From: Flavobacteriales bacterium
GTDB taxonomy: Bacteria; Bacteroidota; Bacteroidia; Flavobacteriales; PHOS-HE28
Reading direction: 5' to 3'
Length of the DNA: 43,002 bases
Assembly: GCA_008016945.1 (NCBI GenBank)
Contig: SSGN01000089.1
Coordinates: forward strand, 1-43,002
Shown: piece after piece, positions 9,961 through 41,370 of the stretch
How positions within the stretch are numbered: the stretch's first letter is position 1
Layout: each line of letters starts with the position of its first letter
Notes under the pieces: generated by a model
What the model was told of the DNA's origin: nothing
Seen by the model: only the letters and a program-made list of their open reading frames with translations
Database searches by the model: none
Program-made: the position numbers and the translations under genes

Positions 9961-11084
9961 TCCACGTCGCTCTCTGTACCGATGGCGTCTTTCCGCAGGC
10001 GATGGGCGGCATGCAGCGGCATTCGCGCTTGTTGGCCGAGCACCTCGCCGCCACAGGGCGCGTTCGGCTCACGGTGATCCATCCGCATCAGCCGGGCCTC
10101 TTCGACCGTGGGCTCGGGATCGAGGAGGTGGCCATCGCTCCCTTGGATACCGAACGTTTCTATCTGGGCGAGTTATGGAGGTACAGTGGCCGCGTGGCCA
10201 GGGAACTCGACCGTCTGCGACCCGATGTGATCCTGTCCCAAGGGTTCTGTGTGTGGAAGGGCATCGACCGGTTCACCGATCGCCTGATCATGCACCCCCA
10301 CGGGTTGGAGATGTACCAAGGCCTCACCCGCAAGGAACGTTGGCTTGGAACGCCGTTCCGAAAGGCGGTGCGGTACATGGCGCGTCGCAGTGCGGTGGTG
10401 GTCTCGTTGGGTGGCCTGCTCACCGGCATCCTTCAACGGGAAGTACGGAACTCCCGGGCACGGGTCCAGGTGATCCCCAACGCGGTGGATGTGCCGCCCG
10501 CGGTGGCGTACGTACCCGGCAGCACCCCCCTGCGCATGCTCTTCGTGGGCCGCTTCGCCTTCAACAAGGGGCTGGACCTGCTGTTGGCCGTGGCGCGCAG
10601 GCTGGAGCGCGAAGGGCGTGTGGACCAGGTGCGGTTCGAGCTGGCCGGCGACGGTCCGTTGCGCGCTGCGATCCAGGCCGAAGGAGTACCGGCGAACGTG
10701 GTATTGCTCGGACGGGTCGAGGATGAGGAACTGTTCCGCCTTTATTCGGAGTGCGATGCCTTCATCCTGCCAACGCGTTTCGAAGGCATGCCTACCGTGG
10801 TGTTGGAGGCCATGGCCCGCAGCCGACCGATCATCGTAAGCGACGTGGGAGCCACCGCCGAGCTGGTGGATGCCTCTAACGGCCACTTGCTGCCCAGTGG
10901 GGATGCCGATGCCTTGTACGCGGCCGTGGTGGCGTTCATCGGGTCCACAACGGCGCAGCGCCGTGCGATGGGAGAGGCCTCGTACGCGCGCTGTGCGGAG
11001 CGCTTCGCATGGCCCATGGTCACCCAAGGGTTCGTTGAACTGTTCGAGTCCGTGGGCCGACGCCCCGAGCGGATCAGCGGCTGA
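9957..11084 (+). CDS. GT4-family glycosyltransferase
   Basis: A 375-residue GT-B glycosyltransferase. Start taken as GTG 9957, overlapping the epimerase stop (GTGA); the protein then opens with IHVALCTDGVFPQAMGGMQR, the glycine-rich N-terminal loop of GT4. Later motifs are MLFVGRFAFNKGLDLLL and EGMPTVVLEAMARSRPIIV with the E-x7-E pair E276/E284, then VGATAELVDASNGHLLPSG. It is the last gene of the polysaccharide locus. Its final 11 bases overlap tail-to-tail with the converging lectin-like operon on the opposite strand, so there is no room for a spacer or separate terminator. Confidence 0.88.
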   Translation: MIHVALCTDGVFPQAMGGMQRHSRLLAEHLAATGRVRLTVIHPHQPGLFDRGLGIEEVAIAPLDTERFYLGELWRYSGRVARELDRLRPDVILSQGFCVWKGIDRFTDRLIMHPHGLEMYQGLTRKERWLGTPFRKAVRYMARRSAVVVSLGGLLTGILQREVRNSRARVQVIPNAVDVPPAVAYVPGSTPLRMLFVGRFAFNKGLDLLLAVARRLEREGRVDQVRFELAGDGPLRAAIQAEGVPANVVLLGRVEDEELFRLYSECDAFILPTRFEGMPTVVLEAMARSRPIIVSDVGATAELVDASNGHLLPSGDADALYAAVVAFIGSTTAQRRAMGEASYARCAERFAWPMVTQGFVELFESVGRRPERISG

Positions 11085-11847
11085 AACAACAGCGGTATGG
11101 CACCGGAGCGCTGCCGGTGGATAGCCAGGTGCCCGCCGATTCGCAACCGTTCAGACCAGCGATCCGCCCTACGTTGTCCTCGTTGGCCGTGCTGTTGGTC
11201 CATTCCCAACTGTTGGTCATGCCCGAGAGCTGGAGGGCAAGGCTTCGTTGGCAGGCACCGATGAACTCGCCCCAGGTGCACAGCCTTCGGCCCACCGCCG
11301 CACAGGCCAACCCCGATTGGAAATAGTCGCCACTGCCCCGTTCGTTGGGTTCGATGCAGTACAGGTCGTTCACGGCCACCATGCCGCTCGGGCAGTTCCG
11401 CCGTAGGTCGTGGTTGCCGTTCAGTACATGGAACGCACCGTCGCCATACACCACGGAGAGCATGTGGCCCTCGGCCATGGCCGTGCCTACGAGCGGAACG
11501 CCTTCGTGCAACACGGGTAGCGGATCCGCCCCATTCACCGCGATGGCCACCGGCATGTCTTCCGAGGCGGGCACACGGATCACGAGGTAGGTGCCATTGG
11601 CGAGGGTGCCGCCCAAGGCGTCGCTTTCCACCGCCCAAGGAGTGGCCGCTACGGGTGTGGCATAGTGGATCGGACCGCGTTGGGCGATGCCTGCGGTAAG
11701 GGCATCGTTGGGGGCCGTGGATGGTGCGAGACCTTCCACCCGACGTACCGCGCCCTGAAGTTCGATGGGCTTGTCCACAAGGATCTGCGCGTGCAACGGT
11801 AGGGCCACCAGACCCAACATGGAGCAGATGTAGGGGATCGTGTTCAT
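11074..11847 (-). CDS. Secreted tail-fibre/lectin-like paralogue, subtype C (copy 2)
   Basis: A 257-residue exported protein, last of the seven-gene operon. A signal peptide (about residues 1-19, ending LPLHAQ) is followed by an N-terminal region with RRVEGLAPSTAPNDAL, resembling the GLadP...DAV element of phage tail-fibre repeats, and a segment ending DGAFHVLNG. The C-terminal domain carries eight cysteines (NCPSG, YCIEP, ACAA, LCTWGEF, ACQR, GCES, RCC) with SWEWTNSTANEDNVGR, and the protein stops at RCCFSR. The pattern A..C...G.RLCTW.EF..AC resembles FGE/C-type-lectin folds. Closest in-window relative is the gene at 13453-14238. Start ATG overlaps the upstream stop (ATGA). Role unknown; surface binding is an inference. 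Confidence 0.8.
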   Translation of the reverse strand: MNTIPYICSMLGLVALPLHAQILVDKPIELQGAVRRVEGLAPSTAPNDALTAGIAQRGPIHYATPVAATPWAVESDALGGTLANGTYLVIRVPASEDMPVAIAVNGADPLPVLHEGVPLVGTAMAEGHMLSVVYGDGAFHVLNGNHDLRRNCPSGMVAVNDLYCIEPNERGSGDYFQSGLACAAVGRRLCTWGEFIGACQRSLALQLSGMTNSWEWTNSTANEDNVGRIAGLNGCESAGTWLSTGSAPVPYRCCFSR

Positions 11848-12617
11848 CGGGTCTTGAAGCAGCACCGGGTATCGCCGGTGATCAGCGACAGGGCGTTGGC
11901 CGAGCGCTGGCTCTGGCAGGTGTACCTGCCGGCCTGGTTGGCGGAGTGCGTGTGGTTCGAGGCGTCGTCGATCCATTCCCATTCATCGAACAGGCCGTTG
12001 AGCTGCGCTTGAAGCATGGCGCAGCCCGTGGCGTATTCATCCCAGGAACAGAGCTTGCCACCCCGTGCGGCACAATGGTCCACGGCTTGGTAGAACTTGA
12101 GGCCGGGCACGGTATTCACCTCCATGCATAGCGGTCCGGCGATGCGCAAGGTGCCCGGGGGGCATGTCGATGTGCTCGGGTTCAACAGCAACCACGCGCC
12201 ATTGGCGAACAAGAGCTCGGCCACCGCACCCGCGCGTAGGGCAGCGGGTGGGAGGTCCTCGCCATCGGTCCGTAGGAGCGGCCGGGTGGCGTGTCCGGGA
12301 ACGGCGATGGACATGGGGCCTTGGTTCTCCGCAGGAACGAGGCAACGGAGCAGGAGACCATCCGTGAGCGTGTCCAAGGCCGGTGCGATAGCCAGGGTCA
12401 GGATGTTGCCTTGCGCGGTAGCGGTGGCCCAATGTGCGGTGCCTGCGGCGTACACCGAGACCGGGATGGCGGCGGTGCCGGATACCGGTGCGGCCAGCCC
12501 GGAGAGCCGCGCTGTGGGATCACTCGCCGTGAAACGGATGCCCGTTCCGAGGGAGACCTGAGCCCAGATTTCCCATGGAAGGCACAGCGCAACGAGTGGG
12601 GCGATCCAGCGTTTCAT
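11844..12617 (-). CDS. Secreted tail-fibre/lectin-like paralogue, subtype A (copy 2)
   Basis: A 257-residue exported protein with signal peptide (about 1-20, MKRWIAPLVALCLPWEIWAQ). The N-terminal region begins VSLGTGIRFTASD and has ARLSGLAAPVSG, a diverged form of the motif shared by the family. The C-terminal domain has CPPGTLRI, LCMEV, HCAARGGKLCSWDEYATGC, LFDEWEWIDDASNHTHSANQ, a TCQ cysteine and terminal RCCFKTR: eight cysteines, probably disulphide-bonded in the periplasm or outside. Closest relative in the window is 14235-15005, which shares WEWIDD.SNH..SA.Q. Both ends form ATGA overlaps with neighbours, suggesting fixed stoichiometry with the other five paralogues. No type IX sorting domain is visible. 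Confidence 0.8.
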   Translation of the reverse strand: MKRWIAPLVALCLPWEIWAQVSLGTGIRFTASDPTARLSGLAAPVSGTAAIPVSVYAAGTAHWATATAQGNILTLAIAPALDTLTDGLLLRCLVPAENQGPMSIAVPGHATRPLLRTDGEDLPPAALRAGAVAELLFANGAWLLLNPSTSTCPPGTLRIAGPLCMEVNTVPGLKFYQAVDHCAARGGKLCSWDEYATGCAMLQAQLNGLFDEWEWIDDASNHTHSANQAGRYTCQSQRSANALSLITGDTRCCFKTR

Positions 12618-13456
12618 CGGTCGATACAGCAGCGGAAACGTGCCGGTGTGGAGGGGGTGTTCTGTCCTCCGAAATCGCAACCGGAGCCGACGTTCCCCTC
12701 GGCGTCGATCCCGACACCAACGAGCTTGGCTCCATTGCTGTAGTTGGCCGCATGGTCCACCCATTCAGCTTCGAGCACGGTGCCGAAGAACCCTGGCAGC
12801 ACGTGGCATGCTCGGCTCCATTCGCTGAGGGTGCACAACCGCGCGTCCTGCTCCACGCAGGCCGATACCGCGTTGAAGAACGTGGCTGTGGTTCGTGGAT
12901 CGTTCTCGATGCACAAGCCGTGGTGGGGGGAGGAATACCCCGAAGGGCATGGCAGATGGGTGGCGCTCACCAGTTGGAAGTAGGTGCCATCGAAGATCAA
13001 CCGGACGGGAACGCCGGGGCGGAGGTCTCCGGCCCGGAGGGGGGTGTTCTCTTGTTTCACGATGAAACGGGGGCCGAGCCCGTTCAACTCCAATGTGGTG
13101 GCCTCGGTATTGGCCGCAGCCGGTATCACCGTCACCACCATGCCCGCGGTGTATTCCGAAGGCGCCGGTACCAGTTCGCCGATCAAGGCGGTGGTTCCGG
13201 TGACCGTGGCGCGTGCGTAGGCTTGCGTTCGCACCGCATCCACGCTCACCGCATCACCGGCGGCAACGGGGGCTTCCAACCCGATCACTTGCCTGTCGTC
13301 GGGTGCCTGTCCGGTAAGGATGATCGGCCCGGGTAGCTCCCATTGGCCATGTCCGGCGAAAGCAAGGACGAGCAACACGGCGCTGGCGCTCCTCCGGTAC
13401 AACGAGGTGTTTGCCATTCGTCGCCCTCGGAGAGCAGCGCGGCGCATCGGTTTCAT
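12614..13456 (-). CDS. Secreted tail-fibre/lectin-like paralogue, subtype B (copy 2)
   Basis: A 280-residue exported protein. Start set at ATG 13456, which overlaps the preceding stop as ATGA like every other junction; this gives a long basic n-region before the hydrophobic core SASAVLLVLAFAGHGQ. An ATG 14 codons later would give a more ordinary signal peptide. The N-terminal region has RQVIGLEAPVAAGDAVSV and LNGLGPRFIVKQ...FDGTYFQLVS, strongly reminiscent of phage tail-fibre/collar repeats. The C-terminal domain has PCPSG, LCIEN, FFNAVSACVEQDARLCTLSEWSRAC, EWVDHAAN, GCDFGG and terminal RCCIDR. Closest relative is 15002-15796. Function unknown. Confidence 0.8.
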   Translation of the reverse strand: MKPMRRAALRGRRMANTSLYRRSASAVLLVLAFAGHGQWELPGPIILTGQAPDDRQVIGLEAPVAAGDAVSVDAVRTQAYARATVTGTTALIGELVPAPSEYTAGMVVTVIPAAANTEATTLELNGLGPRFIVKQENTPLRAGDLRPGVPVRLIFDGTYFQLVSATHLPCPSGYSSPHHGLCIENDPRTTATFFNAVSACVEQDARLCTLSEWSRACHVLPGFFGTVLEAEWVDHAANYSNGAKLVGVGIDAEGNVGSGCDFGGQNTPSTPARFRCCIDR

Positions 13457-14238
13457 CGCGAGTAGCAGCAGCGGAAAGTGCGGTCGATACTGCCGGTGAT
13501 GAAGGCGTTGCCCGCGCTCAGGCAGCTGCCCACACCCACCACCCGTGCACAGTTGTTCTCGTTGGAGGCATCGCCGGTCCACTCCCATGAACTCGTCGGC
13601 TGGAGCATCCCGATCTCCGTGGCCCGTTGACAGGCGGTGACGAATTCACCCCAATCGCACAAGCGCATGCCCACGTTCCCACAGGTGGTCATCGCCGTGA
13701 ACAGATCGGTGGCGGCATGTTTCTCCGGTTCGATACAGTACGCTTCGTTCACCATCACTGTGCCTTCTATGCACGGACGGCGTGGCCGGATGCTCCCGTT
13801 CATCAGCTGGAACGCGGCGCCGTCCATCACCACCGAGAGGGCGGTCCCGGCCGGGATGTCCTCGCCGTTCACGCGCTCGTTGGGCCTGGCCAGCAGTGCA
13901 TAGGGTCCGTGGCCGTTCACCATCAGGTCCACGTCACCAGCGGTGGGGTTGGGGGCGATGAGCACCAGGTGCGTTCCCGCCGGAGGGGCCGTGTCGAGCG
14001 CATCGAGGTCGATCGTCCAGGTGTTACCCATGGCCGGTGTGGCCAGTCGGAACGAACCTGTGCGTTCCACCTCTGCGGTAAGCACCGCATCCGTGGTGGT
14101 GGCGATATTAAGGCCGGTGAGTTGGCGGTCCTCAGGAGCAGCCCCGGTAAGCACCACGGGCCTTTCGGTGGCCACTTGGGCGTTCACCGCAACGGCGAGA
14201 ACGTTGGTGAGAAGGAAGGTCGGTAGACGCATTTTCAT
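13453..14238 (-). CDS. Secreted tail-fibre/lectin-like paralogue, subtype C (copy 1)
   Basis: A 261-residue exported protein; signal peptide about residues 1-21 (hydrophobic core TFLLTNVLAVAVNAQ). The N-terminal region has RQLTGLNIATTTDAVLTA, then VNGHGPYALL and MDGAAFQLMNG. The C-terminal domain has PCIEG, YCIEPEKH, TCGNVGMRLCDWGEFVTACQR, SSWEWTGDASNENNCARVVG, SCLSAG and terminal RCCYSR. It shares the SWEWT...N.N..R layout and GS...FRCCYSR-like ending with 11074-11847. A ninth cysteine (NNCAR) is specific to this copy. ATGA overlaps join it to both neighbours. Confidence 0.8.
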   Translation of the reverse strand: MKMRLPTFLLTNVLAVAVNAQVATERPVVLTGAAPEDRQLTGLNIATTTDAVLTAEVERTGSFRLATPAMGNTWTIDLDALDTAPPAGTHLVLIAPNPTAGDVDLMVNGHGPYALLARPNERVNGEDIPAGTALSVVMDGAAFQLMNGSIRPRRPCIEGTVMVNEAYCIEPEKHAATDLFTAMTTCGNVGMRLCDWGEFVTACQRATEIGMLQPTSSWEWTGDASNENNCARVVGVGSCLSAGNAFITGSIDRTFRCCYSR

Positions 14239-15005
14239 CGCGGAACGAAGCAGCAACGGGAGTGGCCGAGGGTCACGTTGTTGGGGTTGGCCCACCGCTC
14301 GGCCGTACAGGAGCTCAGTCCCACTTGCACGGCCGAGTTGGCGTGATTGGAAGAATCGTCGATCCACTCCCACGCATCGAGCAGACCGGTGAGCTGGTCC
14401 GCGTATTGGGTGCAAGCGATATAGAACTCATCCCAGCTGCAGAGCCGCCCCCCGAGGTTCGTGCAACGATCGGCAGCCGGGAACCACAGGGTGTTGCCTT
14501 GGTCCGCGCGTTCGATGCACAGCCGTTCACTGATGGCGACCGTACCGGGAGGGCATCCGTGTTCGACCAGGTTGGTGAGGATCCATCCATCACCGGCACG
14601 GACCACTTCCACCACGGCGCCTTGTACGATCTGTCCGCGTGCCGGGTCGAGCCCATCCGGCCTACGCAAGGGAGAGGGCGCCAGTCCCACACAGGCCAGG
14701 GTGGCCGGGCCATGGACAGCGGCCGGAGCCACGAAGCGCAGTACCGTCCCATCACGGTGGTCCGTCAGTGGGGCGGAAGGCTGAAGGGTCACGGCCATGC
14801 CGTTAACCGTAGCCGTGGCCCAGGTGGTGGTGCCGATCAGTGATGCCGATACGGTCACGGCGGCGTCTTGGGACGCTGGTGCACCAAGCCCTTCCACGGC
14901 TCGTTCCGCGTCCTGCCCCGTGAAGTGGATCCGGGTGTCCACGGACACCTGGCCATGGGCCATGGACAGGAGTATCGCCGCGATGCTGGTAAGGAGCGGT
15001 TTCAT
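14235..15005 (-). CDS. Secreted tail-fibre/lectin-like paralogue, subtype A (copy 1)
   Basis: A 256-residue exported protein with signal peptide MKPLLTSIAAILLSMAHGQ. The N-terminal region begins VSVDTRIHFTGQD with RAVEGLGAPASQDAAV. The C-terminal domain shows GCPPGTVAI, LCIER, FPAADRCTNLGGRLCSWDEF, LLDAWEWIDDSSNHANSAVQ, SCTAERWAN and terminal RCCFVPR, eight cysteines in all. It aligns by eye along its whole length with 11844-12617, more closely than with its immediate neighbours, which supports a block duplication. Joined to both neighbours by ATGA overlaps. Confidence 0.8.
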   Translation of the reverse strand: MKPLLTSIAAILLSMAHGQVSVDTRIHFTGQDAERAVEGLGAPASQDAAVTVSASLIGTTTWATATVNGMAVTLQPSAPLTDHRDGTVLRFVAPAAVHGPATLACVGLAPSPLRRPDGLDPARGQIVQGAVVEVVRAGDGWILTNLVEHGCPPGTVAISERLCIERADQGNTLWFPAADRCTNLGGRLCSWDEFYIACTQYADQLTGLLDAWEWIDDSSNHANSAVQVGLSSCTAERWANPNNVTLGHSRCCFVPR

Positions 15006-15796
15006 CGGTTGTAGCAGCAGCGGATCAGGTTCAGGTTAAGGGGAGCGTGTGAGTTGCCATATTCACATGCGATGCCCTGCATGATTTCGGGCCCGTTGTA
15101 TCCTTGTCCCATCACCTTGGCGTCGTTGGGGTTGTTCGCCGCATCCTCCAGCCATTCGTAGGCGACCACCGTGGGTAGGAATACCGGATTCCTACGGCAC
15201 GCGCTGGACCACTCGCCGAAAGTGCATAGGCGACCACCGCGTGCGGTGCAGGTGTTCACGGCATTGTAGTACGTGTCCGTGCCACGGGGCTCCGCATCGA
15301 TGCAGTACAAGGCGCTGCCGGCGATGGTGCCCGCTGGGCACGGTCTTGCATTCCAGTTCAGGACCTGGTACCTGCTGCCATCGAAGATCACCCGACTGGG
15401 GACCCCTACAGGTAGGTCCGCACTATCCACGGCGACCTCGCCCCACTTCACCAATGGGTAGGCTCCGGTGCCACCCAGGTCGAGGCTGGCACCAGCGCTG
15501 TTCGCCGCTTGCGGGATGATGGTGAGTAGCATCCCGGGTACCAAGGTGGTGGGACCAGGTTGCAGCTCACCGACCAGGATGTCCGTGCCCGTGGTGGTGG
15601 TTGTCGTCAACACCTGGCTACGGGCCGCTTCCACGTTCACGGCCGCGTCGAGTTGTACGGGGTCTGCCAGTCCGAGCACTTGGCGGTCCGTGTCTTCGGT
15701 GCCGTTCAGGACCAGCCTTACCGGTAGTTCCAATTGGGCGATCGCGGACCAAGGCGATAGGGCCGTGAGGGCCACGAACAAGAGAGGACGGATCAT
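15002..15796 (-). CDS. Secreted tail-fibre/lectin-like paralogue, subtype B (copy 1)
   Basis: A 264-residue exported protein; signal peptide about residues 1-20 (core LLFVALTALSPWSAIAQ). The N-terminal region carries RQVLGLADPVQLDAAVNV, the clearest tail-fibre-like motif in the family, then TIIPQAANSAGASLDLGG and FDGSRYQVLNW. The C-terminal domain has PCPAGT, YCIDAEPRGTDTYYNAVNTC, GGRLCTFGEWSSAC, EWLEDAANNPNDAK, ACEYG and terminal RCCYNR. Whole-length relative of 12614-13456. It is the first of the six paralogues, directly after the sorting-domain protein (ATGA overlap). Confidence 0.8.
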   Translation of the reverse strand: MIRPLLFVALTALSPWSAIAQLELPVRLVLNGTEDTDRQVLGLADPVQLDAAVNVEAARSQVLTTTTTTGTDILVGELQPGPTTLVPGMLLTIIPQAANSAGASLDLGGTGAYPLVKWGEVAVDSADLPVGVPSRVIFDGSRYQVLNWNARPCPAGTIAGSALYCIDAEPRGTDTYYNAVNTCTARGGRLCTFGEWSSACRRNPVFLPTVVAYEWLEDAANNPNDAKVMGQGYNGPEIMQGIACEYGNSHAPLNLNLIRCCYNR

Positions 15797-16680
15797 TCTT
15801 TGCGCAACTTGATGGTGGTGCGTTGCCCGATACGGAGGAAGTAGGGACCATTTGCCAAACCGCTCAAGTCCATGCTGGCGAAGGTGCTGGACCGTTGGTG
15901 CATGGCCGGGGTCACCAAGCGGCCCAGACCGTCGAATAGGTCAAGCTCCTCCAATGCCGCGCCGTCCTTCACTTGGATGAAGAGAGGGCCGTGGGTCAGG
16001 GTGGGCCAGACCTCCACTCCGTTCCTCGCCACCAAGGATGCCGATGCCGTAGGGGCATCCTGGTCGAAGGCGGTGATGAAGTCCCATGGTGCGGGCAGGG
16101 TGGCGCTCACCGTGTACTGTGCGGCATCGTTGGTGCTTGCGAGCGAAGACCACGGGCCGTCTTCCTGTGTTGACTGATACAGACCGATGGCCGAACCCGA
16201 GAGGCCGTTCAGTTCGGTGGCATCGTAAGAGAGGACCACATCGACAGGTGCCGAACCACCGCCTGGAGCCTCCAACCTGAACCACCGGGCGATGCTCGGG
16301 TCGCCTTCGGGAAAGACCCGTGCCAGGTGTCCGCGGGTCACGGTGATGGGACCGGTGGCGGTGTTGGTGGTGAGGGATAGTCCGAGACCACCGGGAGCGG
16401 TGGCGTTGAAAGGTCCGTCCGTGGCGGTGACAGCCATCTCCACGCCGCTGCCGGAGATCGGGGACCCTACCGGCTCCACCACCACGGCCTGGGTGCCCAG
16501 GTCGATCAGGCCATCGTTGATCAGCGCGCCAGCCGGACCGATGGTGAATTGGAGCGGACCCGTGAACCGTAAGGTTGTGCCCTCCTGCACGTGCATGGTC
16601 CCGTTGGAAAGCGTGGCTTGCTGTGCGAAGGAGGCTGGGGCGGCGGCGAGCAGAGCAAAGAGGAATGGAGCGCGTACCAT
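15793..16680 (-). CDS. Secreted protein with type IX (type A) sorting domain, operon leader
   Basis: A 295-residue protein; ATG 16680 gives the signal peptide MVRAPFLFALLAAAPASFAQ. A beta-rich N-terminal part (TLSNGTMHVQEGTTLRF, INDGLIDLG) resembles the start of many Bacteroidota surface proteins. The last ~85 residues form a T9SS type A C-terminal domain: VWPTLTHGPLFIQV, ELDLFDGLGRLV, MDLSGLANGPYFLRIG and a basic end TIKLRKE. T9SS would carry it across the outer membrane and sort it to the cell surface. It is the first gene of the operon containing six lectin-like paralogues that lack such a domain, so it may be their surface anchor or scaffold (inference). Confidence 0.82.
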   Translation of the reverse strand: MVRAPFLFALLAAAPASFAQQATLSNGTMHVQEGTTLRFTGPLQFTIGPAGALINDGLIDLGTQAVVVEPVGSPISGSGVEMAVTATDGPFNATAPGGLGLSLTTNTATGPITVTRGHLARVFPEGDPSIARWFRLEAPGGGSAPVDVVLSYDATELNGLSGSAIGLYQSTQEDGPWSSLASTNDAAQYTVSATLPAPWDFITAFDQDAPTASASLVARNGVEVWPTLTHGPLFIQVKDGAALEELDLFDGLGRLVTPAMHQRSSTFASMDLSGLANGPYFLRIGQRTTIKLRKE

Positions 16681-16686
16681 ATCGCC

Positions 16687-16694
16687 CAAAGATA
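16687..16694 (-). promoter_or_regulatory. -7 box of the lectin-like operon
   Basis: TATCTTTG on the minus strand is a perfect TAnnTTTG match. Only 6 bases separate it from ATG 16680, implying an almost leaderless mRNA. A TTG (16714-16712, minus) lies 17 bases upstream as a possible -33 element, within the palindrome ATTGCAAT at 16708-16715. Confidence 0.7.
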
Positions 16695-16726: not shown

Positions 16727-16734
16727 TAGTTTTG
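16727..16734 (+). promoter_or_regulatory. -7 box of the CotH/O-antigen ligase cassette
   Basis: TAGTTTTG on the plus strand is a perfect TAnnTTTG match, 18 bases before ATG 16753. It is back-to-back with the minus-strand promoter; the palindrome ATTGCAAT lies between the two boxes and could give both a -33 TTG, though the plus-strand spacing (15) is short. Confidence 0.7.
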
Positions 16735-16752: not shown

Positions 16753-17154
16753 ATGGACCTGAAGGGAGCGATCGCCGACCACATGGGGCACTTTTCGGTA
16801 TACGATATCCCGAACGTGCTCTTCGTGTTGATCGCCTCGCTGGTGTTCGGTTATGTGACCGCGCGTTGGGGGGCTGGCCAGGAAGGTGCCCAAGTGCGGC
16901 AAAGTGCCCTGTGGGCCAGTACGGCGGCCATGGCCGCTGCGCTCGTGCGTTCGCAGCTCCCATTGGCCACCCTCGTGCTCGCCGCTGCCGTGCTCGTCGG
17001 GCGCCGCAGTGGTGAGGAGGGCGATAGCACCTTGCTCACCATGCTGCTCATCGGCATCGGCTGTGGCTCCGGGGCTTCCGTCATCGTCGGTATCGCCCTG
17101 GTGGTCTTCATTCCGATCATGCGCTGGGCGCATCGTAGGGCGAAGCAGGGTTGA
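16753..17154 (+). CDS. Small inner-membrane protein, first gene of the CotH cassette
   Basis: A 133-residue protein with about three to four membrane segments: NVLFVLIASLVFGYVTA, then AALVRSQLPLATLVLAAAVLVG, then LLIGIGCGSGASVIVGIALVVFI. Start taken as ATG 16753, 18 bases after the -7 box; an upstream in-frame codon at 16714 precedes the promoter and is rejected. The GIGCGSG stretch and glycine-rich last segments recall DUF4956-type membrane proteins that often neighbour CotH genes, but it is shorter than that family and the match is only a suggestion. Its stop overlaps the CotH start (TGATG). Confidence 0.65.
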   Translation: MDLKGAIADHMGHFSVYDIPNVLFVLIASLVFGYVTARWGAGQEGAQVRQSALWASTAAMAAALVRSQLPLATLVLAAAVLVGRRSGEEGDSTLLTMLLIGIGCGSGASVIVGIALVVFIPIMRWAHRRAKQG

Positions 17155-18830
17155 TGATGTTCCCGAAAGGCGACCGGAATACGCTGCTGGCCATGGCTGC
17201 GGCCTTGGTCTTGGCTTTCGTCGGTGTGGCCTGGGTGGGGCATGCGCCGATGCCGGTGGGCGTGGTGCGGGATCAGCCGGCAGCGAACCTGCTTCCGGAT
17301 CAAGCCTATCCACGGTCCACCGAAGAGGTGGTATTGAAGGCCGGAGCTTCGGGCCAGGTCTATGTGGCCCATGGTGCCGATGGTGGGTTCGAACTCCACC
17401 GTGCTGGCGAAAGTGTCGCACAGGGTGTCGATCGGGTCGCGGTGGCCCGGCTGTTGGCCACACCGACCTCCCTCAACTGGCGACATCCGCTGATCGGATC
17501 GCCAGCGGCTGAGATCCTCCGCGTGGCCGACGCCCTGCCCGGAGGGCGTGGTCCCGAGCGCCTTTACACCTTGTTGCAGCAGCACCATGGTGGGCTCCCC
17601 GTGGTGTCCATCCAGTTGCCCACCGATGCTTTGGTGGGTCCCGATTCCGGCCTGCTCGTGGTGGGCAATGCCATTCTTCAAGCCCCCGCCAAGGTCCTGT
17701 TGGCCGAGGTGCGTGATCCCAAGTGGTGGAAATACCCGGGGAACTTCCACATGCGCGGCAAAGCATGGGAGCGGGTGGGTAGGGTCCAGTACATCGAACC
17801 CGATGGCACCACCGGCTTCGAAAGACCGGTGCGGATACGGGTGAACGGACAGATGACCAGGGGGTTCCCTCAGCATGCGCTCCGGCTCTCCTTCGATGAT
17901 CCGTTGTCCTTCGATCTTTTCGATGAGGAACCGACGAGCGGCTACGAGGCGCTTATCCTGCGTGCAGGAGGGAACGATCAGATCAAGGCCATGCTGCGCG
18001 ACGTGTTCCAGCACGCGCTGTGCGAAGGACTACCGTTCGAGACCTCGGGACACCGGACCTGTGTGGTGTACATCAACGGTGCGTATTGGGGCGTGCATCA
18101 TCTGCGACCAAGGATGGATGAGAAGGAGATCGCCCGGCGGTACGGGATCAAGAAGAAGCGGATCACGATCCTGGAGGACGAAGCCCGGCTCTACCACGGT
18201 GATCCGGCGGAGGTGCCGTGGTTCGAACGCTTCGCCAGACGCACCGCAGCGTGGGATGGAACGTCCAACGCATGGGCGGATACCTTGGAGGCGCATCTGG
18301 ATGTGGAAGGCTTCCTCACCTACATGGCCACCCAAATGGTCTTCGGCAATATGGATTGGCCCAATCAGAACGTACGCTTCTGGCGGTATTCCGGCGAGCC
18401 AGGCAAGGAACGCCCCTTGGATGGCCGCTGGTATTTCATCATGGGCGATTCGGACCTGGGATATGGTGCCTTGGGTTCTCCGCACGATGACATGTTCCTG
18501 CGGGTGAAGGCCATGGACGTCCCCGTGACCCAACTCTTCCGGGGTATGATGCGTGCACCGCGGTACAAGGCTCGGTTCGTTGCCATTGCCCGGGGCCTGG
18601 TTCACGGCCCGCTCGCAACGCCACGGGCCTTGGAGGTCCTGGATCGTATCGCGGCACACATGGAACCCGAAATGGGACGCCACACCGCGCGTTGGCGCAA
18701 ACCGGCCGACCCGATGGTCTGGAAGGCGCATTTGGACGTGATGCGCACCTACGCCCACCAACGCAGCCTCGCCGTGCTGGAGCAACTGGAGGCCTTTGAG
18801 CAGCTCAACGTGAAGGAATACCTGCCATGA
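17154..18830 (+). CDS. CotH-family (spore-coat-type) protein kinase-like protein
   Basis: About 558 residues. An N-terminal membrane anchor (LLAMAAALVLAFVGVAWVG) precedes a periplasmic CotH domain: GFPQHALRLSF, ILRAGGNDQIKAMLRDVF, VVYINGAYWGVHHLRPRMDE, then FGNMDWPNQNVRFWR with D401 and WYFIMGDSDLGYG with D432/D434. In CotH proteins these Asp positions bind metal and ATP for atypical protein phosphorylation; here they appear intact. ATG 17154 (overlapping the previous TGA) or ATG 17157 are both possible starts. The 3' end overlaps an O-antigen ligase-like gene by ATGA, suggesting its target is linked to surface glycan or protein assembly. Target not known. Confidence 0.83.
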   Translation: MMFPKGDRNTLLAMAAALVLAFVGVAWVGHAPMPVGVVRDQPAANLLPDQAYPRSTEEVVLKAGASGQVYVAHGADGGFELHRAGESVAQGVDRVAVARLLATPTSLNWRHPLIGSPAAEILRVADALPGGRGPERLYTLLQQHHGGLPVVSIQLPTDALVGPDSGLLVVGNAILQAPAKVLLAEVRDPKWWKYPGNFHMRGKAWERVGRVQYIEPDGTTGFERPVRIRVNGQMTRGFPQHALRLSFDDPLSFDLFDEEPTSGYEALILRAGGNDQIKAMLRDVFQHALCEGLPFETSGHRTCVVYINGAYWGVHHLRPRMDEKEIARRYGIKKKRITILEDEARLYHGDPAEVPWFERFARRTAAWDGTSNAWADTLEAHLDVEGFLTYMATQMVFGNMDWPNQNVRFWRYSGEPGKERPLDGRWYFIMGDSDLGYGALGSPHDDMFLRVKAMDVPVTQLFRGMMRAPRYKARFVAIARGLVHGPLATPRALEVLDRIAAHMEPEMGRHTARWRKPADPMVWKAHLDVMRTYAHQRSLAVLEQLEAFEQLNVKEYLP

Positions 18831-20185
18831 GGGACTATTTCGCACGTAACTATCAGCTGTACATCCTGGTCCTGTTGTACATCGTGGTGGGCGTGTATGC
18901 GAAGCCCTTCCTGTTCGTGTTGATGCCCTTCTCGGTCTTCTTCCTGAAGTCGCGCGACCTCTGGGCGGACATGCTCTTCGGCTTCATCATCACGCTGGTG
19001 CTTTCGGACATCACCCCTTGGTTCTTCAAGATGCAGGTGTTCAAGGGCGCGAAGAACATGTACATCGTGGCGTTGGCGGCGATCTTCCTGTTGGAACGCC
19101 ATCGATTCGTGCCCTTCTCCCAGGTGTTCAAGATCTTCGTGCCCTTCTTCTTTTACAGCCTGTTCCCACTGGTCTTCTCCAATAACCTGGTGGTCGCGGT
19201 GCAGAAGACCCTCTCCTACGCGCTGTTGTACCTGGTCATTCCCAACTATGTGCTGTACAATTTCCGCATGTTCGGATGGGACTTCTTCAAGAACCTGGTG
19301 CGATTCATGGCAGTGATCCTGCTCTCCGGATACTTCGTGCTCTGGTTCCACGGCGAGTTCTATGCGTACATGATCGGGCGTTTCCGAGGGCTCTTCGGAA
19401 ACCCCAATGGTATGGCCATCTTCTGCTTCCTGCTCATCGTGCTCACCGCCACGTTGAACTCGCTCAATCGCCAACTTTTCACCTGGAAGGACAAGCTCTT
19501 CGTGTACGGCACGGCGGTGTACTTCCTGCTCATGTCCGGGTCGCGGTCGTCCGTGGTGGCCGTGCTCATCTTCCTGATCTTCGGTCGCTTCTTCTCATCG
19601 AGTCCGTTCATCGGGTTCATGATGCTGTTCGCCATCTTCGGGCTATCGGAGGTGATCTTGAGCAATCTTGAACCGATCGTGCACTTCCTGGGGATCGAAG
19701 AGTACGTCCGTCTGAATACGCTGGAGAGTGGTAGCGGCCGGTACTTCGCATGGGAGTTCGCCTGGAGGCATATACAGGAATATTTCGTCTTCGGTGGTGG
19801 CTTCGCTAACGACGAACGGATCATGCGCAAGCACCGCCTGTACTTGGAACGCATGGGACACCAGGGCGGGGTGCACAACACCTACCTCTCGTTCTGGCTC
19901 GATTTCGGGATCGTGGGCCTGCTCATCTTCCTACGAAGCTTCGTCCTCGTGTTCATCAAAGCCAGCAAACTCGTGCCGTTCAGCCTGGGCATCATGTTCG
20001 CCGTGATGTTCTCCATCATGTATGAATCGTGGCTGGTGAGTTCGCTCAACCCGTTCACCATCATCCTGCTCACCATCATCACCGTGGTCACCGAAGAAGA
20101 GATCGTGAATTGGCAGGATCACACTTCGGCGGATGACCAAGCAGAGGAGCCCGCCACACCTCATCCGGTGGTCATCAACCATTGA
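18827..20185 (+). CDS. O-antigen ligase/polymerase-like membrane protein
   Basis: A 452-residue polytopic inner-membrane protein with roughly ten to twelve hydrophobic segments. The Wzy/WaaL-type pattern is visible: GRFRGLFGNPNGMA, LMSGSRSSVVAVLIFL, SGSGRYFAWEFAW, and the periplasmic loop HQGGVHNTYLSFWLDFGIVG with the probable catalytic His at about residue 350. Such proteins polymerise O-antigen repeats or ligate a polyprenyl-linked glycan to an acceptor (lipid A, or a protein in O-oligosaccharyltransferases); sequence alone does not separate these. It lies between two CotH-like genes, coupled to the first by an ATGA overlap. Confidence 0.83.
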   Translation: MRDYFARNYQLYILVLLYIVVGVYAKPFLFVLMPFSVFFLKSRDLWADMLFGFIITLVLSDITPWFFKMQVFKGAKNMYIVALAAIFLLERHRFVPFSQVFKIFVPFFFYSLFPLVFSNNLVVAVQKTLSYALLYLVIPNYVLYNFRMFGWDFFKNLVRFMAVILLSGYFVLWFHGEFYAYMIGRFRGLFGNPNGMAIFCFLLIVLTATLNSLNRQLFTWKDKLFVYGTAVYFLLMSGSRSSVVAVLIFLIFGRFFSSSPFIGFMMLFAIFGLSEVILSNLEPIVHFLGIEEYVRLNTLESGSGRYFAWEFAWRHIQEYFVFGGGFANDERIMRKHRLYLERMGHQGGVHNTYLSFWLDFGIVGLLIFLRSFVLVFIKASKLVPFSLGIMFAVMFSIMYESWLVSSLNPFTIILLTIITVVTEEEIVNWQDHTSADDQAEEPATPHPVVINH

Positions 20186-20206: not shown

Positions 20207-22681
20207 ATGAAACGACGTCTCATCATCATTCTCTCCCTGCTGGTCGCCGCGATCGTCGGTGGATCCTATGTGGGGGATCGCATGCTTAAAAGCAAGGGAC
20301 ACCCAGGGTTGAGGAAGTTCCTGCATCAATGGTGGGTCAACTACCCCGCTTCCTTCGCTGTGGAGCCCGAGGTAGTGGAGTTGAAGGTGGATCAGACCGA
20401 CCTGGATGCGCTGGAGAACGTGGTCCATGCCGCCCGTGACCGGGGGGTGATCATGCGCGAAGGCAATGATTATGTGCCGGCCGAGTTCACCGCAGGTGGC
20501 AATACCTTCAAAGTGAAGGTGCGGATCAAAGGAAAGATGGCCGATCACGTCAAGGGCGACAAGTGGTCGTTCCGTGTCCAGGCCCGTAAGGACAATGGGT
20601 TCAAGGGCATGCAGCGCTTCTCCCTGCAGCACCCGGGCACCCGGAACTACCTCTGCGACTGGTTCTATCATCGGCTGATGAAGGGCGAGGGTATCATCGC
20701 GCTGCGTTATGGCTTCGTGCGGCTGCACTTCAATGGCGAAGACCTGGGCATCTACGCCTACGAGGAGCATTTCGGCCCGGAGCTGTTGGCCAACAACGAT
20801 CGGTTGAAAGGCCCGCTGTTCCGCTTCGATCCCGGATTGTTCTGGCAGCATCGCTTGAACATGATCGAGAAGGTGCGTTACAACGAGCCATTCGCGGCCT
20901 ATCAGGCTGCCGAACTCGATGCCTTCGGGTCCGGCGACATGGAGAAGGATACCGTACAGCGGCGTTACTTCGAGGAAGCGGTGGCCCTGATGGATGCCTT
21001 CCGGCGCGGTGTTCTTCCTGCGGCGCAGGTCTTCGACGCGGACAAGATCGCGCGGCGCCACGCCATTCTCGACCTCGTGGGCGGCCACCACAGCATGGAT
21101 TGGAGCGATGTGAAGTTCTACTATGATCCATTGCTCAAACGCATCGAGCCGGTCGCCTACGAGAGTTTCAGCGCGTTCCCCATCCGCTCGTTGGCGGGAT
21201 CCAACCGCTATGTGGGCGGGTTCAAGCAGTCCATGGACCTGCATGATGCTTACTTCAACGACACGGTCGTGTTCGCAGCGTATGTCCATCACCTGGAACG
21301 TGTATCACGCCCGGAGTTCCTCGACAGTGCCTTTACCGTGCTGGCACCGGCGTTGGACAGTGCGTCTGCCATGATCTACCGTGAGTTCCCGTACAAGGAG
21401 CTCGATCGCGACATCTACCGACACAACCAGATGATCATCCGGCGCATGCTCGATGTGCCCAAGGGTTTTCATGCTTACGCCGCACCGGCCACCGATAGTC
21501 TGCGCCTCACCATCGTCCCCATCGAGGGATTGCCCATCGAAGTGCTTGGCGCGGTGGCCGCGGATGGGCGCGTGTTGCCCATGGCGAAGCGGACCATCGT
21601 GCCCTGCCGCCCACCCGGCTCGGTAGGGACCCCGATGGAAGCACGGATCCCGCTGGACGACCGATGGCGCAGTAGCCCACCGCAGAAGGTGGAATTGCGC
21701 TACCGGGTTCTGGGTGCCACCACGGAGAAGACCCTCGAGGTCTTCCCATACGCTTATCTCGATAGTGTGTCGACACCGGCCTTCGCACCACCTTCGGGCT
21801 ATGATGTGCGCACCGTTGCCTGGCTCGTGGTGGACGAAGGTGCCCGGACCATCGTGGTGAAGCCCGGAGCGCACATCGTTTCCGAGGATGTGTACATCCC
21901 AGCGGGATATTCGGTCAGGGCCGTTGCACCACTGCGCATCGATCTGGTCAAGGGTGCCCGCATCGTCTCGCGTTCGCCCATGCACTGGAAGGGCCTGGAG
22001 GATTCTCCGATCACCTTGCTGTCTTCCGACCAAGGCGGTGGCGGTCTGCTATTGGTATCCACGGGCGGTAGTAGTGTTTTCGAGCATGTGCGTATCGAAG
22101 GCTTTGGACCTACGGCTTCCACGGTGCCCTCCATCGTGTTGCAGGAAGCCCCGTCCCAGTGGGTGCGGTGTGCCCTGGGCGAAGTGCAGGCGCGTGACCT
22201 GATGCAGGTGGTGCGCGGCGCGGTCACCCTAACGGATTGCCGGTTCACCGGTGGCGCCGATCAGTTGAAGCTGGCCTATACCAATGCCTCCCTGGAGAAA
22301 GTGGAGCTTCGCGGTGCGGCCGATGATGCCCTCCTCGTGAAGGGAGGGGCGGCTCGGATCAGCGAGGCGGTGGTATATGCGGCCTCTGGCGATGCCTTGG
22401 CCGTGGACGAGGCCGCGACAGTGACCGTGGACCGGAGCACCTTGGAGGCCACGAAGGATGCGATCGAGGTCTCGGAGGGTGCAACGCTCGTCGTGGAAGG
22501 TGGCCGTATCACATCCGCGAAAGGGTCCGCGATCGAGGTCAAGCAACTCCATGCGCGGCACGGTCCATCGACAGTGACCCTCAAGGGAGCCGTGGTGGAG
22601 GCCAATGATCCTCCCAAGATCGGCAAGGGGAACAAGGTCACGATCAATGGTGGGGCACCAATGGGATCGACCGTACCATGA
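20207..22681 (+). CDS. CotH-like protein fused to a parallel beta-helix
   Basis: An 824-residue protein. A signal anchor (LIIILSLLVAAIVGGSYVG) precedes a CotH-like half: VKVRIKGKMADHVKGDKWSF, MQRFSLQHPGTRNY, VRLHFNGEDLGIYAYEEHF, and HHSMDWSDVKFYYDP with D298. Where active CotH proteins carry a second Asp after this strand, this protein reads YESF (E319), so catalysis is uncertain. The C-terminal ~280 residues repeat short hydrophobic strands (IDLVKGARIVSRSPMHW, VFEHVRIEGFG, VTLTDCRFTGGADQL, AVTVDR-like turns) and fit a right-handed parallel beta-helix. It begins 21 bases after the ligase gene and ends in an ATGA overlap with the phosphoesterase. Confidence 0.78.
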   Translation: MKRRLIIILSLLVAAIVGGSYVGDRMLKSKGHPGLRKFLHQWWVNYPASFAVEPEVVELKVDQTDLDALENVVHAARDRGVIMREGNDYVPAEFTAGGNTFKVKVRIKGKMADHVKGDKWSFRVQARKDNGFKGMQRFSLQHPGTRNYLCDWFYHRLMKGEGIIALRYGFVRLHFNGEDLGIYAYEEHFGPELLANNDRLKGPLFRFDPGLFWQHRLNMIEKVRYNEPFAAYQAAELDAFGSGDMEKDTVQRRYFEEAVALMDAFRRGVLPAAQVFDADKIARRHAILDLVGGHHSMDWSDVKFYYDPLLKRIEPVAYESFSAFPIRSLAGSNRYVGGFKQSMDLHDAYFNDTVVFAAYVHHLERVSRPEFLDSAFTVLAPALDSASAMIYREFPYKELDRDIYRHNQMIIRRMLDVPKGFHAYAAPATDSLRLTIVPIEGLPIEVLGAVAADGRVLPMAKRTIVPCRPPGSVGTPMEARIPLDDRWRSSPPQKVELRYRVLGATTEKTLEVFPYAYLDSVSTPAFAPPSGYDVRTVAWLVVDEGARTIVVKPGAHIVSEDVYIPAGYSVRAVAPLRIDLVKGARIVSRSPMHWKGLEDSPITLLSSDQGGGGLLLVSTGGSSVFEHVRIEGFGPTASTVPSIVLQEAPSQWVRCALGEVQARDLMQVVRGAVTLTDCRFTGGADQLKLAYTNASLEKVELRGAADDALLVKGGAARISEAVVYAASGDALAVDEAATVTVDRSTLEATKDAIEVSEGATLVVEGGRITSAKGSAIEVKQLHARHGPSTVTLKGAVVEANDPPKIGKGNKVTINGGAPMGSTVP

Positions 22682-38765: not shown

Positions 38766-38796
38766 CACGCCTTTGGGTGAAAAACTACGTCCACGC

Positions 38797-41370
38797 ATGA
38801 AGTCGAACCTATCCTCGATCGCGGCCACGGTGGTACTGATGGTCCTGACGACCACCACGACCGCCCAGTGTACCTTGACCAACGCCACCAGCTGTGTTTG
38901 CGCCACGGCAGGGCAGACGGATTGTGACCTGTTGCCCGACATGACCATCAGCTGGAATGGGCTGTCCACGGTGAGTGGAGGCCCTTCAGAATACGCGCAG
39001 AACGATGGCTCCAACCCAGGGCGATTGCGGATCTCTGGATCCACACCCAACATCGGCAAGGGTAACCTCGAAGTGCGCGGGGTGTCGGGAGGGATCAGGG
39101 CATTCATCTGCGGCCAGGATACCATCTACGCATCAAGTGGTCAGCAGAGCTTCACCTGTCCGGGAGGTATCTCCCCGAAGCAGATCCTCTACCAACGGAT
39201 CTACCATAAGAACGGGAACACCATGTCGTACCAGGATGTGAAGACCGGTACCATGACGTATCACCCCAATCACGCGCACTACCACGTGGACGATTGGACC
39301 ACGATGACCTTGCGTATCCAGGATCCCAGTGAGCCGCTGCCGACCAAATGGCCGATCGTGGCCACCGGTGCCAAGATCGGTTTCTGCCTTATGGACTATT
39401 ACACCTGCTGGACCGCAAGCGCCAATGGCCATTGCCGTACCAGTCAGGAGTGGCAACAGGGCACCGTGCTCAATACCCAGGGTCAGTTCCCCAACCGGGG
39501 CATGGGCAACGGGTACAACTGTAGTGCCGATTACCAAGGGATCTCCACGGGCCGTACCGACCTGTATGGTGAGTGGCTCGAAGGCATGTGGATCAACCTG
39601 CTGCCCAATCTGTGCAACGGCAACTATTGGATCGTGGCCGAGGTCGATCCCACCAACGTTTTCCAAGAAGAGAACGAGGCCAACAACTGGACGGCCATGC
39701 CATTCACCTTGGCTCTGCAACGCGCCGCGAACAGCGGTGGTTCCGCATTCATCAGTGCGAACAAGCGCCCCATCGTGGGAAATGGCCGTACGGTGACATT
39801 GACCGCTGCACCGGGCTACTCCTACCTCTGGAACACCGGTGCCACCACACGCAGCATCACCGTGGCGCAAGCGGGTTCATACTCCTGCACGGTGAATGCC
39901 CCTTGTGGCACCTCGCTGCAGACCGGCACCATCGTGGTCACCGCCATGGAAGCCCCCGCAGCACCCACCGCCACCGGGGCGGTGGTACTGGGCCCGGCAA
40001 CGGCCGATCTGCATGCCACAGGTGACGATCCGCAGTGGTATACCGCCGCCAGTGGCGGTACGGCCATCGGTTCAGGCAACGATCTCACCACACCGGTGCT
40101 CTCCGAGACCACCACGTATTGGGTGAGCGATCGGAACACCACGGCCGGGAACACGTGGACCGTTGGCAAGACGTACAATGCCTCGCACGGATCCAACTAC
40201 AACGGAAGGCAGTGGATGTATTTCGATGCCTATGAACCATTCACCATCAAGTCCGTTCGCGTGGTGGCTTCAGGGGTCGGTAACCGGCACTTCATTGTGG
40301 TGGATAATGTGGGTAACCTCATCGCCGAGAAGCAGATCGAGCTGTTGCCCGGTGATCAGATCGTGCAGTTGAACTTCAATATCCCCAAGGGCATTCAGCA
40401 CAAGATCTCGGCGTACGACAGTGGTGCGCAAAGCAGTGGGACCCAACTCGTGTTCCAGGATATGCATTATAGTACCACGGGCGTTTCCTATCCTTACGCC
40501 ATAGGTACCGTTGGTTCGATCACAGGTTCGACCTTGGGTGGTTCGGTGTACTTGTTCTTCTACGATTGGGAAGTTGCCACCGAGACCGTTGTCCAGGAGA
40601 GCGCTCGTGTGCCGGTGGTGGCCGAAGTGGTCACCGGTGTGATGCTCGACCTGAAGGCGTTCCTCGATGGTCCTTACGATGCGAATACCGGTAAGATGCA
40701 CGATTCATTGCGGGTGAACGGACTGATCCCACTGACCGAACCATACGCGGCCATGGGTTTCCCACAAGTGGGTACGGGTGGTGAGTCGATCCCCGCTTCT
40801 CGGTTGACCGTGATCGGTGATGATGCGGTAGTGGATTGGGTGCGTGTGGAACTGCGTTCGGCCTCCACGCCATCCACCATCATCGCTACCCAGAGTGGTG
40901 TCATCACCCGGGCCGGCCAGGTCCTTTCGGCATCGGGAACTCCGATGCGCATCGGAGTGCCTGCCGGTAACTACCATGTGGTCCTGAGGCACCGGAACCA
41001 CTTGGGGGTCATGACCGCAAGCCCGATCGAATTGGGTGTGACCACGACCACGATCGACCTACGAACGAGCATCACATCAACCTGGGGTACCGATGCTCAG
41101 CGTGCGTCCAATGGGGTCATGCGCCTGTGGTCGGGCGAGGTAGTGCGCGATGGGGTGGTGTCCTATACAGGTGGCAACAACGACCGTGACCGTATACTCC
41201 AGGTCATCGGAGGTACCGTGCCCACGAATGTGGTCGAAGGATATCTGCCGTCCGACGTTAATTTGGATGGATCGGTCAAGTACACCGGTGGTGCCAACGA
41301 CCGTGACCCGATCTTGACTAACATTGGTGCCACGGTTCCAACGGGATCCCGTTTTGAGCAGCTTCCATAA
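38797..41370 (+). CDS. Secreted protein with bacterial lysyl-oxidase-like domain
   Basis: An 857-residue protein with signal peptide about 1-23 (SSIAATVVLMVLTTTTTAQ). Residues about 60-305 match the lysyl oxidase fold: copper-binding HAHYH (H159, H161, H163, with H156 upstream), the cofactor Lys in GAKIGFCLMD (K193), QGIS, and the cofactor Tyr in TDLYGEW (Y257), then NGNYWIVAEVDPTNVFQEEN. Lys and Tyr form the LTQ cofactor in animal enzymes, oxidising lysine or amine side chains. Ig-like regions follow (SYLWNTGATTRSITVAQAG; QWYTAASGGTAIG). The end has two dockerin-like repeats, YTGGNNDRD (about 790-798) and DVNLDG...YTGGANDRD (820-837). Start ATG 38797 follows the promoter. Enzymatic activity is an inference. 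Confidence 0.84.
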   Translation: MKSNLSSIAATVVLMVLTTTTTAQCTLTNATSCVCATAGQTDCDLLPDMTISWNGLSTVSGGPSEYAQNDGSNPGRLRISGSTPNIGKGNLEVRGVSGGIRAFICGQDTIYASSGQQSFTCPGGISPKQILYQRIYHKNGNTMSYQDVKTGTMTYHPNHAHYHVDDWTTMTLRIQDPSEPLPTKWPIVATGAKIGFCLMDYYTCWTASANGHCRTSQEWQQGTVLNTQGQFPNRGMGNGYNCSADYQGISTGRTDLYGEWLEGMWINLLPNLCNGNYWIVAEVDPTNVFQEENEANNWTAMPFTLALQRAANSGGSAFISANKRPIVGNGRTVTLTAAPGYSYLWNTGATTRSITVAQAGSYSCTVNAPCGTSLQTGTIVVTAMEAPAAPTATGAVVLGPATADLHATGDDPQWYTAASGGTAIGSGNDLTTPVLSETTTYWVSDRNTTAGNTWTVGKTYNASHGSNYNGRQWMYFDAYEPFTIKSVRVVASGVGNRHFIVVDNVGNLIAEKQIELLPGDQIVQLNFNIPKGIQHKISAYDSGAQSSGTQLVFQDMHYSTTGVSYPYAIGTVGSITGSTLGGSVYLFFYDWEVATETVVQESARVPVVAEVVTGVMLDLKAFLDGPYDANTGKMHDSLRVNGLIPLTEPYAAMGFPQVGTGGESIPASRLTVIGDDAVVDWVRVELRSASTPSTIIATQSGVITRAGQVLSASGTPMRIGVPAGNYHVVLRHRNHLGVMTASPIELGVTTTTIDLRTSITSTWGTDAQRASNGVMRLWSGEVVRDGVVSYTGGNNDRDRILQVIGGTVPTNVVEGYLPSDVNLDGSVKYTGGANDRDPILTNIGATVPTGSRFEQLP

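Follow-up and report, generated by a model that had tools for sequence, protein, structure and literature searches.

Conserved A-B-C sets of tail-fibre/C-type-lectin genes in a flavobacterial polysaccharide locus may encode a surface fibre of three different chains

Why would a bacterium keep three versions of one small fibre-like protein side by side, and do so twice over? The question is raised by a 43,002-nucleotide stretch of a Flavobacteriales genome (GenBank assembly GCA_008016945.1, contig SSGN01000089.1; hereafter the window), in which seven minus-strand genes run head to tail from 11074 to 16680, with a leader gene first and then six genes for exported proteins of 256-280 aa. An earlier note, made by reading the sequence alone, had described six such consecutive genes behind a leader, and the coordinates of the open reading frames confirm this layout. 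We find that the six paralogues fall into three classes, each present twice and arranged A-B-C-A-B-C, and we incline, if only slightly, to the view that the operon encodes a short lectin-tipped surface fibre made of three different chains, not three identical ones.

What kind of protein do these genes encode? Single-chain structure prediction was carried out for one paralogue, the first class A protein (15002-15796, minus strand, 264 aa), and the resulting AlphaFold2 model (m590155a9c60e; predicted local distance difference test score, pLDDT, 87.6) has a tail-fibre domain at about residues 51-148 and a C-type lectin domain at about residues 150-264. The N-terminal domain matches the tail fibre of phage Pa193 (PDB 9b45; Foldseek, VIA), in agreement with the phage-fibre resemblance first suspected from motifs, and the C-terminal domain is closest to the tip of Bdellovibrio Bd2740 (PDB 8oks). 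The sequences of both structures are also matched by the profiles of all three classes (class B: 9b45, E 9.5e-7, and 8oks, E 4e-5; class C: 8oks, E 2.5e-4, and 9b45, E 1.1e-3), and a profile of the whole family matches Pa193 gp47 (9b45) over the N-terminal domain at E 5.7e-9, stopping short of the lectin domain. We call the C-terminal domain a C-type lectin because of this predicted fold and these profile matches. The other fold proposed for it, that of the formylglycine-generating enzyme (FGE), did not hold up: no FGE-sulfatase family was matched by any of the six proteins at E<=1 in Pfam, and the family profile reached only E 0.12 against FGE chains. Otherwise, Pfam gave just two matches for the six, both below cut-off and both in the first protein, one to SpaA_3 and one (E 0.0045) to UL45, whose family is C-type-lectin-like; NCBIfam returned nothing meaningful. 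Each of the six proteins is predicted to join a phage tail-fibre domain to a C-type-lectin domain with a putative role in sugar binding; a phage-fibre-like stem joined to an adhesive tip, which characterizes the mosaic adhesive trimer (MAT) superfamily, is seen in the class A fold and in the family, class B and class C profiles.

The two-domain plan and the length are the same in all three classes, with mature proteins of about 240 aa. In an end-to-end alignment of the six window paralogues, 25 columns are invariant, eight of which are cysteines, as expected from the common plan and the minimum of eight conserved cysteines inferred beforehand; across 122 proteins, 92 have exactly eight cysteines and class B is the most variable. 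The RCC terminus that had been predicted is present, as RCC(Y/F/I)xR in four of the six and RCCFxxR in two, but the supposed RLC(S/T)W core proved more variable (RLCTF, RLCSW, RLCDW, RLCTL, KLCSW and RLCTW). A putative signal-peptidase site followed by glutamine occurs in 41 of 42 class A, 39 of 39 class B and 40 of 41 class C proteins and in all 27 leaders from the window and its relatives, under a loose pattern (the first Gln after Ala, Gly or Ser within residues 15-50) that was applied without a control set. Glutamine at this position is the usual product of signal peptidase I in Bacteroidota, the Q-rule (PMC5837995).

How distinct are the three classes? A genome scan yielded 18 loci, each from a metagenome-assembled genome; 15 carry the label Flavobacteriales and three Bacteroidota or Bacteroidetes. 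In a tree of 70 copies, every class forms a clade of its own (22 rows for A, 22 for B, 23 for C) with 100% bootstrap support and a Shimodaira-Hasegawa-like approximate likelihood ratio (SH-aLRT) of at least 98, and one divergent trio (locus L018) falls outside them. A quick tree of 128 rows likewise kept each class in one clade (42 rows for A, 39 for B and 41 for C; SH-aLRT 99, 99 and 98, respectively), with six rows of a second group outside. In the family of genome G015, two of the three genomes belong to this second group, in which a leader again precedes three such genes. Between G015 and G047, the second genes form one pair in the tree and the third genes another (SH-aLRT 94 and 62), and the first genes are not paired. 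Judged from these phylogenies, the three classes are old and deeply split. In the window, the first class A protein is followed by class B (14235-15005, 256 aa) and class C (13453-14238, 261 aa), both on the minus strand and both placed by their clades and by the profile matches of their classes. The second set comprises class A at 12614-13456 (280 aa, or 267 with the ATG at 13417 as start), class B at 11844-12617 (257 aa) and class C at 11074-11847 (257 aa), again on the minus strand. Hidden Markov models built from sets that include these same copies score them at 380 bits for A (121 for B, 145 for C), 362 for B (131 for A, 136 for C) and 350 for C (106 for A, 152 for B), respectively. The heteromeric array proposed in the earlier note is partly supported, as two fixed A-B-C sets and not as a free array of six.

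Are the three classes inherited as a unit? We surveyed the family of one genome from the 18-locus scan, and 31 of its 45 genomes carry such genes while the other 14 carry none (an order-level sample consists of the same 45 genomes). Given this incidence, the shared plan is not a product of chance. Nine carriers have six copies, seventeen have three, three have five, and one each has four and two. Together with G015 and the window, 33 arrays were mapped. Leaving G015 aside, the gene after A is B in 41 of 42 cases, the gene after B is C in 41 of 41 and the gene after C is A in 10 of 11; thus the same gene order, sought as a check of the original proposal, is indeed conserved among relatives. Among the 26 arrays uncut by contig ends, 17 are 1A:1B:1C and seven, the window included, are 2:2:2; G010 is 1:1:2, G015 has three divergent genes that the class models do not sort, and none has fewer than three genes. 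Seven arrays are cut by contig ends, five of them uneven as found (G001, G012, G013, G017 and G018). Two triads lie 14 kb apart in G008. In G010 (locus L065, 1628-15145) a leader-A-C run is followed 10 kb away by B-C, so that neither place has a full triad and all three classes are kept. Overall, relatives have either retained the full triad or lost all of it.

Neighbouring genes can also overlap. In the window, an ATGA that overlaps the stop of the preceding gene by four bases is available as start for all six paralogues. Across relatives, allowing for alternative starts, such an overlap of 4 bp can be placed at 28 of 29 leader-A, 36 of 41 A-B, 33 of 41 B-C and 5 of 10 C-A junctions (26, 36, 31 and 1 with the starts chosen initially), that is, at 69 of 82 junctions within triads, with a Fisher p of 0.022 for within against between triads. 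A stronger contrast based on the first-chosen starts (C-A overlap in 1 of 10) was set aside, given that this count rises to 5 of 10 with alternative starts.

The solved fibre relatives are described as trimers (Pa193 fibre, PMC11042391; Bd2740, PMC10769870; Lcl, PMC11162425) and the paralogues come as an obligate three, which together point to an A:B:C heterotrimer. One chain of each class per trimer is the simplest arrangement, since the old classes are equal in number, fixed in order, and kept or lost together. A, B and C would be exported by Sec, their tail-fibre domains would pair into one trimer, and this would present three non-identical C-type-lectin heads. As the window has two triads, it perhaps encodes two fibres of different specificity. 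The alternative of three separate homotrimeric lectin fibres (AAA, BBB and CCC) that serve one pathway, and are kept together for that reason, we consider unlikely, if still a serious contender. It accords with the identity of only 26-30% between the first window protein and its B and C paralogues, and with the available text of the MAT and Pa193 papers, where no fibre relative is described as built from different chains, the word heterotrimer is absent from the former, and the latter applies it to baseplate proteins but not to the fibre. Parity of copy number argues the other way: if each fibre worked alone, one would hardly expect equal numbers in 24 of the 26 uncut arrays, the fixed A-B-C order or the lack of any uncut array below three genes. 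Class contrasts in charge and cysteines were considered as hints of chain pairing, but mean net charges are alike across classes and we draw nothing from these contrasts. A larger or open assembly, with the leader nucleating a filament to which A, B and C contribute consecutive segments or decorations, would suit a single operon with its leader first and the six copies of nine of the 31 carriers; the two-domain plan and length that A, B and C share, and the trimeric state of the N-domain relative, make it very unlikely, though no search was aimed at pilin-like features.

What does the leader contribute? The leader gene (15793-16680, minus strand), the first of the operon and kept upstream of A in relatives, encodes an exported beta-rich protein with a putative C-terminal sorting domain like those of the type IX secretion system (T9SS). 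This domain, which the earlier note had assigned outright, falls short of both curated cut-offs in the window (PF18962, 22.3 bits against 27; TIGR04183, 15.8 against 23) but is clear in the leader of the relative G047 (58.5 bits). The T9SS pore family SprA_N was found in all 44 genomes searched and in none of 14 control genomes. At E<=1e-10 a leader model matched 29 of the 31 carriers, missing G024 and G018 (the latter truncated at its contig end); G031 and G043 are matched only partially, G043 on another contig. The expected co-occurrence of leader and paralogues holds in most carriers. Two of the 14 non-carriers were also matched, G022 over a short, weak stretch and G041 clearly. In G041 (locus L095, 2694-4860) the frame after the leader looks by eye like a glycosyltransferase, and A-B-C genes are missing from the 5.9-kb contig and from the whole genome, which may be incomplete. 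The predicted fold of the leader (pLDDT 75.8, nine sequences) had no PDB match at E<=0.001. Co-made with A, B and C, the leader probably serves the trimer as carrier or anchor at the outer surface. If the six were instead periplasmic accessory lectins of a polysaccharide assembly line, never exposed at the surface, their Sec-type signals and a locus rich in glycosyltransferases, with CotH and Wzy genes besides, would be readily accommodated; the gene overlap with a T9SS-type leader, and surface adhesins as the nearest relatives of known function, make this quite unlikely.

Several observations weigh against the heterotrimer as we propose it. Prediction was single-chain and covered one of the six paralogues, so that the trimer is deduced, and co-inheritance and overlaps would also fit three homotrimers used together. 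Parity is broken in G010. The trios of the second group are not securely assigned to the three classes; in G015 the first gene stands beside B (SH-aLRT 72) and not A. Leader and fibre are not strictly coupled, since no leader was detected in G024, which has A-B-C, and G041 carries a leader but lacks A-B-C. Finally, Pfam and TIGR04183 searches found a T9SS sorting domain (Por_Secre_tail or TIGR04183) in none of the six paralogues, just as had been noted from the sequence.

What would the heads bind? The operon sits in a conserved polysaccharide locus, and on this position the heterotrimer's heads most likely hold or recognise the polysaccharide of the surrounding genes. Conservation was assessed by tblastn across 36 loci of unequal length, some too short for neighbours and with two or more from each of two genomes. 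Divergent from the leader are a small protein, hydrophobic by eye and without a Pfam match (16753-17154, plus strand, in a frame open from 16714; 25 of 36 loci), a CotH-family protein (17151-18830, plus; PF08757, E 3.1e-36; 26 of 36), a member of the Wzy_C O-antigen ligase family (18827-20185, plus; PF04932, E 2.8e-16; 24 of 36), a further protein that matches CotH and, just under cut-off, a beta-helix profile (20207-22681; 20 of 36), and a phosphoesterase. The two proteins with CotH matches flank the Wzy_C gene and are kept with the polysaccharide locus. A glycosyltransferase (9987-11084, plus; PF13692, E 1.8e-31) converges on the 3' end of the operon and is matched in 23 of 36 loci, two of these matches (26% and 39%) possibly being other glycosyltransferases. 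Further glycosyltransferases and a UDP-GlcNAc 2-epimerase lie on this other side of the operon.

These neighbours also bear on the origin of the genes. A prophage remnant, with tail-fibre genes left in a bacterial locus, would explain the tail-fibre N-domain, the match of two of the six paralogues to the PHROGs tail family phrog_4900 (E 1.3e-6 and 0.0015) and the structural matches to uncultured Caudovirales proteins. Signal peptides and conserved polysaccharide neighbours are at odds with it, the gene at 12614-13456 had no match among 50,697 phage records, and no relative was confirmed when the family alignment was compared with viral contigs; already disfavoured, this origin is hardly credible. 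Classification as a virion tail fibre among phage genes was rejected, the neighbours being genes of the polysaccharide locus.

Upstream of the leader, TATCTTTG (16687-16694, minus strand) matches TAnnTTTG, which we take to be the Bacteroidota -7 promoter element, 6 bp before the ATG; if a promoter, it would give a nearly leaderless mRNA. A second site (16727-16734, plus) lies back to back with it, between the leader and the divergent neighbour. The window has 7 matches against 4.2 expected, and 18 of 100 shuffles reach 7; the count is not above chance, so the match alone proves nothing. The lectin fold prompted the idea of a diversity-generating retroelement, and no reverse transcriptase was found among the part of the window genes that was scanned, template repeats not having been searched. 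Elsewhere in the window, a large protein (38773-41370) has Ig_7 and lysyl-oxidase matches above Pfam cut-offs; lysyl oxidase is better known from animals.

How widespread are such proteins? Scoring six candidates per genome, which gives a rough map, a survey of the class matched 38 of 395 genomes; by our reading of the table, 11 of these matched over both domains, all within the two groups already found. In the other 27 a single domain was matched, the open frames ranging from about 200 to 2,600 aa. The lectin-like domain also stands alone in other open frames of the class, mostly longer ones (for example in G071, G345 and G242), and these might be single-gene fibres comparable to the MAT proteins.

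The individual components are of familiar types, and the obligate triad with its T9SS-type leader is new as far as our searches go. The Bdellovibrio MAT protein Bd2740 (8oks), reported not to bind calcium (PMC10769870), likewise joins a phage-fibre-like stem to an adhesive tip; MAT proteins are about 1,000 aa long (shorter ones 627 and 843) and have a conserved N-terminal domain as described, whereas the triad proteins are far shorter and come as obligate three-gene sets with a leader. The Legionella collagen-like protein Lcl (PDB 8q4e) differs in its collagen stem and as a type II secretion substrate. A published precedent for a three-gene heterotrimer is the tail of the virophage DSLV2, where three consecutive tail-fibre-like genes encode proteins reported as a 1:1:1 heterotrimer from modelling, co-purification and electron microscopy (PMC12724248); this tail is viral, is likened to T4 gp37, and is set beside the triad by description only. 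The tail fibre gp47 of Pa193 shares the N-terminal domain, is part of a virion, and has a match that does not reach into the lectin domain. Complement C1q is a heterotrimer whose three chains, A, B and C, are paralogues and bear recognition heads; it is an animal protein with a collagen stem and another head fold, and serves as an analogy only. In the open-access literature we found no relevant heterotrimeric fibre, lectin, adhesin or tail except the virophage case, and no such tail-fibre and C-type-lectin system for Flavobacteria or the T9SS, so that the suggestion of an undescribed system stands to that extent.

Of the fibre relatives, all are described as trimers and only the virophage tail as a heterotrimer, in the texts available. 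A fuller picture, in which an obligate A:B:C heterotrimer of phage-fibre/lectin chimeras is surfaced as a folded trimer by its T9SS partner and reads or holds the cell's own polysaccharide with its three different heads, as a bacterial counterpart of C1q, we offer tentatively, as somewhat more apt to fail than to hold. If true, a cellular fibre of three obligate paralogues would show how a tail-fibre scaffold came to serve as a machine carrying three distinct binding heads; it would also provide a testable case of the T9SS exporting partners that lack a sorting domain. For these bacteria, it offers a hypothesis for how they hold or recognise their polysaccharide coat.
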